The position numbers and the translations under genes are program-made. Positions 1,404 through 3,075 of a DNA stretch of 37,240 nucleotides are shown here, one piece after another (position 1 is the stretch's first letter; every line of letters starts with the position of its first letter). The notes below the pieces were generated by a model. The model worked only from the letters and a program-made list of their open reading frames with translations. It was not told where the DNA came from and ran no database searches. The stretch comes from a virus, in IMG/VR virus record IMGVR_UViG_3300042382_000112, positions 1 through 37,240 of that record, one strand, 5' to 3'.

Positions 1404-2069
1404 TCAGTCCTTATGCACAAGTAGCCTGTCAGTCTGTGCATCGTCCGCTGGGCCGGTCTGACAAGCTGGGGTTTGCCCAGTTCGAGAGTACTGTAGCACA
1501 TACGCCTGCGCCTTGGCTAGTAGCGCATCGTCGTCGTTGAAGAGGCCCAGACCGCGATTGCAGTTGCTGCACAACAGGGCGCGGATCGCGCCTGTGACGT
1601 GATCATGGTCAATGGCGAGGTCCTTCGTCTTGCCCGACGCCTTGTCTGGTGCGCGCTCTGGCTGGGCGCAGATGGCGCACACGCCGCCCTGTTCGCGCAG
1701 CATCTCTTGGTAACGGGGAGCGTCCACGCCCGCAGCACGCCACTTGCGCTGCTTGGTGTAGTGCGGATGGCAAAGGTCTTTGGCGTACAAGATGTTGTCG
1801 CAACCATCGATCAGGCACCGCTTCGCCGGCTTCTTGCGATCGCGATACCGAGTGTGGCCGTGGCGCAACAGTCGCTGGTAGTGCATCTTGCACAGCCCTT
1901 TGGACTTCACAGGCTCAGCGCAGCCATCCTCAATGCACTCGGGCGGCTTTTCGCGGACGCGGCTGCGAATAGGTGAAAAGTCCGAGCCCCGCAGGCGCTG
2001 GGCATAGTGCGTCTGGCAAAGACCGCGCGCCTTGTGCGGGCGGGTGCAGCCATCAATCTGGCAAGGCAT
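1404..2069 (-). CDS. HNH endonuclease of the endonuclease VII type with three zinc repeats
   Basis: The 221-residue protein has three N-terminal copies of a Cys/His unit of the form C-x3-GC...GLC-x2-HY (about residues 3-30, 45-72, 85-110). They are followed by a recombination endonuclease VII-like core: GGVCAIC, then LAIDHDHVTGAIRALLCSNC and GLFNDD (about 128-175), with the two Cys pairs and the Asp-His-Asp-His active-site segment. The family cuts branched DNA or acts as a free-standing homing endonuclease. Here it is a lone gene placed between the major capsid gene and a structural gene, which fits a mobile intruder. Its ribosome binding site lies inside a strong hairpin with a U-tract, so expression is probably restricted. 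Confidence 0.85.
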   Translation of the reverse strand: MPCQIDGCTRPHKARGLCQTHYAQRLRGSDFSPIRSRVREKPPECIEDGCAEPVKSKGLCKMHYQRLLRHGHTRYRDRKKPAKRCLIDGCDNILYAKDLCHPHYTKQRKWRAAGVDAPRYQEMLREQGGVCAICAQPERAPDKASGKTKDLAIDHDHVTGAIRALLCSNCNRGLGLFNDDDALLAKAQAYVLQYSRTGQTPACQTGPADDAQTDRLLVHKD

Positions 2070-2118
2070 AAAAAAATCTCCTCCGGTAGTTAGGTTTGTA
2101 GCCTAATACCGGAGGAGA
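2070..2118 (-). terminator. Terminator-like hairpin that also holds the HNH gene's ribosome binding site
   Basis: A 12-bp stem (arms 2077-2088 and 2107-2118) is topped by a further 5-bp stem (2090-2094 with 2102-2106) and a 7-base loop. On the minus strand it is followed by seven T residues (2076-2070), so it looks like a standard intrinsic terminator for the capsid gene. The 3' arm contains GGAGGAGA, and the ATG of the HNH gene follows directly after the T-run. The same hairpin therefore can end capsid transcripts and hide the downstream ribosome binding site in any read-through mRNA. Confidence 0.85.
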
Positions 2119-2160: not shown

Positions 2161-3075
2161 TCAGATGCCCGGTGTACCGAACACGCCACGGGGGTCAGTC
2201 CACCCGAACGCATAACGCTCTGTCGCCTTATAGCGCATGGAGTCGGTTTCGAAGTCACCTTCCATGCTCTTTTCGAGGCCACGGCGCATCGCGAGCTTCA
2301 GGCCTTCCGGCGCATCAGTCTGCACCCACCATGCGGTGGTTGAGGTGATACGCGAGAGGTTGGCCTGACCTTCGGTCAGCAAACCCATTGATTTCACTGG
2401 GTTAATATCATTATCCGCAGTGCCGGCACGCAGTACGCTCTTCAGCAGCACTTCGGCTTGGAACACGTTAGACGGCCCAGTGACGATCTGCTTCGGCGTC
2501 AGGCGGATACGCTTGCCGTTGTTGTCAACAGCGTTGCGGATTTGGATCAGCAGCTGCTCGAGCGAGGTCTGCGACAGAGCCGCAGCCACGTTCAGCTTGT
2601 TGCTGAAGGTGCCGTTGACGATCGGGTGATCGGTGGCAACCAGTTCCTTGCCGTCGCCGCCCGGATAGGCAGCGTTGAAGGCGCGGTTCAGGATGTTGGC
2701 ACCCAGCGTTTCCTTCGTCTCGATCAGCGACTGCGCGAGGTGACGCGCATAGGTCTGACCGATACGAATGTGATCGCCGTCTTCCACCAGCACCTTGGTC
2801 AGGGCGAAAGCCAGACCGTAGACGCGATAGACGTAGCGCTGGATGAACAGCACGCCGCCCGACTGGTAGGTGACCGGCATGCCATCCGGCAGTTCCGGCG
2901 CGGCGCCGAAGCCATAGAGCACCGGCTCTTCATGGTAGTTCCGGGGGATGCCCTTGAACTCCTTGAAGACCTGCGACCACTCATCAGCGCGCTGATCATA
3001 GATACCATTAAACTCTTCGTTCAGAATCGGTTCGACGATTGAACGAAAGTCGGTTGAACGCATCGGCATAGCCAT
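2161..3075 (-). CDS. Major capsid protein
   Basis: The 304-residue protein begins MAMPMRSTDFRS and matches the pattern of short HK97-fold capsid proteins in podo-like phages. It has an N-terminal arm, a central ETLGANILNRAF segment, TPKQIVTGPSNVFQAEVLLKS in the middle, and a C-terminal run AWWVQTDAPEGLKLAMRRG. The end, RYAFGWTDPRGVFG, is typical of a capsid beta strand that closes the subunit. AGGAGG lies 8 bases before the ATG. It follows scaffold, a 180-aa gene and a 191-aa head gene in the usual head-module order and is followed by a strong terminator-like hairpin. The fold is inferred from family resemblance and position. Confidence 0.85.
   Translation of the reverse strand: MAMPMRSTDFRSIVEPILNEEFNGIYDQRADEWSQVFKEFKGIPRNYHEEPVLYGFGAAPELPDGMPVTYQSGGVLFIQRYVYRVYGLAFALTKVLVEDGDHIRIGQTYARHLAQSLIETKETLGANILNRAFNAAYPGGDGKELVATDHPIVNGTFSNKLNVAAALSQTSLEQLLIQIRNAVDNNGKRIRLTPKQIVTGPSNVFQAEVLLKSVLRAGTADNDINPVKSMGLLTEGQANLSRITSTTAWWVQTDAPEGLKLAMRRGLEKSMEGDFETDSMRYKATERYAFGWTDPRGVFGTPGI

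Follow-up and report, generated by a model that had tools for sequence, protein, structure and literature searches.

The 60 bp between the major capsid gene and a nuclease gene of a tailed phage appear to work as a one-way expression valve. A self-bypassing hairpin in this stretch would be at once the terminator of the capsid transcript, a lock on the ribosome binding site of the nuclease gene and the site of an embedded promoter for that gene, a reading to which we assign a probability of roughly 0.68. RNA coming from the capsid gene would contain both arms of the hairpin and be mostly terminated at the U-tract, and in RNA that reads through, the ribosome binding site would be locked in the stem. 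A weak promoter of the housekeeping type would lie in the same DNA, with its −35 before the stem, its −10 at the top and the 5′ arm in the 17-nt spacer. Its RNA would start in the loop or the upper 3′ arm and would not include the 5′ arm; therefore neither terminator nor lock would form and the nuclease would be translated. The nuclease would thereby be shielded from capsid transcription, which presumably yields abundant RNA, and would be produced separately in small amounts.

The window analysed here is the whole 37,240-base virus record IMGVR_UViG_3300042382_000112, whose closest named capsid relatives are the Caulobacter phages GB2A, RW, RLK and KcrB (85.5% amino-acid identity). The capsid gene, the hairpin, the nuclease gene and a further gene from position 1401 follow each other in this order on the minus strand (Table 1), with the capsid stop codon about 40 nt upstream of the hairpin. 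The initial annotation called the second gene product an HNH endonuclease. It is an HNH nuclease by its match to PF02945 (70.8 bits against a cutoff of 23.6), a profile match that places it in the Endonuclease VII family, and the motifs CxxC, DHxH and CxxCN are conserved; three zinc-knuckle-like repeats precede the nuclease domain. Endonuclease VII-type HNH nuclease is the better name, and homing is a candidate role.

A scan of a viral collection with the capsid yielded 80 loci of 86–100% identity (about 86% or more), and a scan with the nuclease yielded 61 loci. Three classes of post-capsid loci were found, with this nuclease gene, with a GIY-YIG gene, or with neither, and presence of the nuclease is polymorphic among relatives at one post-capsid site. 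Phage RW has other genes after its capsid gene, and no nuclease match was found nearby. At locus L073 a different GIY-YIG-like protein is encoded after the capsid gene.

Table 1. Features in and around the capsid–nuclease junction (positions in the window).
Feature	Positions	Strand	Evidence or remark
Major capsid protein gene	2161–3075	−	PF25209, 6.9e-11; Mu gpT-like, 3.8e-07
Second, weaker hairpin before the main one, AAAAAGC/GCTTTTT	2127–2141 and 2145–2159 (arms)	−
−35-like hexamer TTGCAA	2123–2128	−	Shortly before the 5′ arm; TTG invariant in 16 leader clusters
Hairpin 5′ arm	2102–2119	−	Mostly inside the 17-nt promoter-like spacer (2122–2106); arms covary
−10-like hexamer TAGGCT	2100–2105	−	Stem top and loop; T, A and second G invariant in 16 clusters
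Predicted transcription start	2090–2094	−	From promoter geometry, about 7 nt past the −10; leaves out the 5′ arm
Hairpin 3′ arm	2076–2094	−	Contains Shine-Dalgarno GGAGGAG (2084–2078); unpaired-probability folding
U-tract of intrinsic terminator	2070–2076	−	Seven T, abutting the start codon ATG (2069–2067)
Endonuclease VII-type HNH nuclease gene, 221 aa	1404–2069	−	PF02945 Endonuclease_7, 9.1e-20; phrog_2914 endonuclease VII, 5.8e-32
Kissing-loop RNA element ahead of the next gene	1410–1467	−	92.0% of cells paired; covariation 0.616 vs 0.05–0.15 in slid controls

The hairpin (2119–2076) pairs 2119–2102 with 2094–2076 across a 7-nt loop. It had been described as a stem of 12 + 5 bp; we count 13 + 5 pairs, closing G-U included, and one bulged base, and the hairpin itself stands firmly, with a folding energy of −28.7 kcal/mol against a mean of −9.1 for shuffled sequences (z = −7.84; none of 200 shuffles was as good). 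The run of seven T does lead at once into the ATG, and the GGAGGAG that lies entirely within the 3′ arm is indeed the sole Shine-Dalgarno sequence of the nuclease gene, as first noted. The window thus has what defines an intrinsic terminator, a GC-rich stem with a U-tract immediately after it, and from its sequence a terminator function of the hairpin is well supported. A simple consensus scan of the window for promoters and terminators listed neither the hairpin, probably because of its bulge, nor the promoter, and an Rfam search with the window and eight relatives gave no match.

The two arms evolve together. RNAalifold reported 13 pairs, nine of them with changes on both sides; by counting on its alignment, 10 of the 13 were changed on both sides, and 82.7% of cells were paired compared with 69.9% after shuffling. 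The arm covariation score was 0.427, against 0.222 for shuffled arms (0 of 500) and 0.11–0.35 for slid ones. The high score (0.347) of the control with a slide of −1 probably reflects a one-column shift of some 3′ arms in the MAFFT alignment. In an alignment-free arm-swap test own arms paired at a mean of −30.9 kcal/mol and crossed arms at −17.9, and the own 5′ arm was the best partner of the 3′ arm in 13 of 16 clusters and the second best in three. With registers fitted for each sequence, a mean of 11.9 of 13 positions pair, and foreign arms fitted likewise reach 9.0.

Folding calculations give the Shine-Dalgarno sequence of the window an unpaired probability of 0.000 in the long RNA and 0.358 in the predicted short RNA, which leaves it just partly open (0.36). 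Among the leaders, the ribosome binding site is closed or mostly closed in the long RNA of all 16 clusters and more open in the short RNA in every one of them, the gain being small in L103 and L110 (about 0.24 in the short RNA, 0.15 in the long). In all leaders the predicted short RNA forms only weak structure (−1.8 to −9.2 kcal/mol; −2.4 kcal/mol in the window), compared with −27 to −40 for long RNAs. A translation lock over the nuclease ribosome binding site is well supported by these predictions. Ribosomes finishing the capsid gene are unlikely to open it because the capsid stop lies about 40 nt from the stem. The initial annotation saw in the hairpin a stop for capsid mRNA joined to a lock on translation, which fits the sequence and the comparisons but is incomplete, since the embedded promoter-like pair was overlooked. 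A lock alone would leave the nuclease gene silent; the key part is therefore the promoter-like hexamers inside the hairpin.

One hexamer stands before the stem and the other at its top, and the 5′ arm therefore falls in the promoter spacer. Of 31 distinct leaders with the nuclease gene, 30 have the pattern TTGNNN-17 nt-TA(G/A)Gxx at one and the same position with respect to the stem; the −10-like hexamer reads TAGGAT in most relatives where the window has TAGGCT, and the −35-like hexamer of the three most divergent of the 16 clusters is TTGACA, TTGACA and TTGACG. Across the 16 clusters the spacer positions that form the 5′ arm are mostly variable (down to 0.15 bits), and TTG, TA and the second −10 G are invariant: the arms covary whereas the hexamers stay fixed. 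Eight more leaders came from a profile search, and TTGNNN-17-TA is present in seven of them. Exceptions are L134 and L276, which have no proper −35, and L096 and L292, with AAGGAT 18 nt away. The pattern is a regular expression chosen after inspection and not a blind test, with 59 leaders without the nuclease gene as a safeguard; TTG-17-TA(A/G)GNT occurs in none of these 59, and the looser TTG-17-TANNNT in three, where shuffling predicts 1.15. When the whole collection was searched with the pattern, 13 loci were found, and those inspected have the same leader before the same nuclease gene. The match in the window itself is weak (TTGCAA/TAGGCT, 7 of 12 positions of the E. coli consensus, below the scan threshold). 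The promoter case therefore rests on conservation, from which we infer an active promoter; the start site is predicted from promoter geometry.

Some of the conservation at the −10 may be due to G-C pairing in the upper stem, where TAGG faces CCTA. That this upper stem is nearly invariant would also suit a reading in which terminator and lock are real, TTG-17-TAGGAT is an operator, a nuclease cleavage site or a protein-bound apical RNA loop, and the nuclease is expressed by leaky read-through; for example, the late promoter of I-TevI overlaps an operator to which I-TevI itself binds (PMC2988022). However, the 17-nt spacing and the TTGACA of divergent members are hallmarks of a promoter, the −10 side persists in L128 and L121/L122 although its pairing partner has changed, and a promoter is compatible with an overlapping operator. 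We regard the recognition-site reading as unlikely. It is very improbable that processing of read-through RNA, such as RNase III cleavage of the stem, opens the lock in place of a promoter bypass: a long duplex stem is of the kind that RNase III-like enzymes can cut, but processing offers no reason for a conserved TTG and TAGGAT at fixed spacing.

Loci L142–L146 have an internally deleted nuclease gene and an intact hairpin, and TTGCAA has become CTGCAA; being a single lineage, they make this coincidence of a −35 change with a broken gene only suggestive. The deletion in these loci, and in L042, leaves about the last 47 residues of the nuclease. Two distant nuclease relatives (45–48%) have longer leaders, with TTGACG-16-TATAAT in L288 and GGAG in a stem in L289, which suggests that the design is old.

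Relatives without the nuclease gene had been proposed as a check on whether the terminator came first, and the outcome is split. In most of their loci a terminator-like hairpin unrelated in sequence lies just past the capsid stop. Post-capsid terminators are therefore general in the group, but the hairpin of the window is confined to loci with the nuclease gene. In the nuclease-free loci inspected, the ribosome binding site of the next gene lies outside the terminator-like hairpin. General post-capsid terminators are also what one would see if the hairpin were a capsid terminator and nothing else, the nuclease gene having inserted so near to it that the purine-rich ribosome binding site was bound to fall in the 3′ arm, with no regulation involved, and a GC-rich 3′ arm readily looks like a Shine-Dalgarno sequence. 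We nevertheless consider a simple terminator quite unlikely, given that five divergent relatives, L127, L128, L129, L242 and L244 (capsids 75–81% identical to that of the window), retain a hairpin over the ribosome binding site and have no U-tract, as does L276, and that conservation of the promoter-like hexamers is limited to leaders of the nuclease gene. By the definition used above, these six hairpins are not intrinsic terminators. The five divergent relatives keep TTGAC(N)-17-TA(G/A)GAT together with the lock, so within the self-bypassing hairpin lock and promoter are shared more widely than the U-tract, which either was added or has been lost. By this distribution the lock appears more fundamental than the terminator. 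We found no support for movement of the leader together with the nuclease gene to other genome sites: in every relative with the leader whose contig extends far enough, the capsid gene lies upstream, and bacterial genomes searched for the leader gave one weak, partial match.

The transposase genes of IS10 and IS50 are a selfish-gene parallel, protected from transcription that enters from outside: read-through RNA hides the ribosome binding site and RNA from the gene's own promoter does not. These genes lie at transposon ends and not at phage capsid loci, and their hiding structures are not known to double as intrinsic terminators. The parallel with T4 homing endonucleases drawn in the initial annotation is apt, and the T4 cases likewise depend on a promoter so placed. 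Promoter-in-hairpin logic was described for I-TevI, I-TevII, I-TevIII and segB of T4 and for mobE of Aeromonas phage Aeh1 (PMC2988022). Common to these and to the window are an HNH or GIY-YIG gene, a ribosome binding site closed by a hairpin in upstream RNA, and, by prediction for the window, an own-promoter RNA that does not include part of the hairpin. However, the T4 and Aeh1 leaders have T4-type middle or late promoters and their hairpin is not described as a terminator (PMC2988022), whereas the leader in the window has a putative sigma-70-like promoter with the 5′ arm in its spacer, and its hairpin would also end the capsid transcript. The T4-type late promoter TATAAATA was not found in the nuclease leaders, where the conserved hexamers are TTGNNN and TAGGAT. 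An inhibitory helix also covers the initiation region in longer RNAs of T4 genes 49, e and soc, gene 49 being Endonuclease VII, the name-giving member of the nuclease family (PMC3014915). These genes differ in having T4 late promoters and in not being post-capsid, and no terminator is combined with the lock in that account (PMC3014915). Timing likely differs as well: T4 has a late embedded promoter and makes the long RNA early, whereas in the window the capsid gene is on the long RNA and the embedded promoter resembles a housekeeping promoter of the host. Timing, termination efficiency and translational repression are, like promoter activity, what we infer from sequence. A literature search of limited coverage found no hairpin that combines terminator, lock and promoter.

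The last nuclease codons (window 1404–1480, minus strand) traverse a kissing-loop RNA element, which is carried by over 30 capsid relatives, has changes on both sides in 17 of 22 pairs and covaries at 0.616, where no slid control exceeds 0.147. Stem P1 encloses P2, and a 6-nt stretch (ATGCAC in the window, [A/T]CATGC in others) pairs with the loop of a small hairpin beside the Shine-Dalgarno sequence. No Rfam match was obtained for the window and eight relatives, and the element has the look of a regulatory RNA not described before. Since the reading frame of other phages ends ahead of it or passes through it in a different frame, the tail of the protein is probably conserved on account of the RNA and not of the protein itself. 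The I-TevI lock was proposed to protect the folding of the intron entered by its reading frame (PMC2988022). The nuclease reading frame of several phages similarly runs, in differing frames, through the structured RNA element of the next gene, and by analogy one may speculate that the lock in the window protects this element.

The GIY-YIG family behind the capsid gene (L161–L240, L029, L034, L038, L044, L049 and L068) has a conserved hairpin over its start region. Mostly these genes lie behind a separate terminator, and a second hairpin, ATGGCA...TGCCAT, has the ribosome binding site in its loop and the start codon in its 3′ arm. Its 11 pairs form in 70–100% of cases (54 distinct leaders) and show few changes on both sides, as expected because the 3′ side is coding; the sequence may be a DNA-binding palindrome. 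In 7 of the 54 leaders TTGACA-17-(T/C)ANNNT lies over the hairpin, and in one subgroup TTGACA-17-TAWGGT overlaps it. Whether post-capsid endonuclease genes repeatedly evolve self-bypassing insulators made of terminator, lock and promoter spacer, with the GIY-YIG genes as a second, independent instance, is a tentative idea that we do not at present favor.

In summary, the logic of a lock with a promoter in the hairpin was already known from T4, and what would be new here is a sigma-70-like promoter, outside T4-like phages, fused to a capsid terminator. If this is correct, capsid transcription does not lead to expression of the parasite gene, whose own RNA is subject to neither block, and the T4-style hidden ribosome binding site with an in-hairpin promoter arises also in phages that are not T4-like and can share its hairpin with a terminator. 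Such a hairpin would be a compact device of natural origin: the block on transcription and the block on translation depend on one 5′ arm, and both are lifted by the position at which the RNA starts. In the many relatives the nuclease gene is present, absent or broken, which makes it testable which part is selected.
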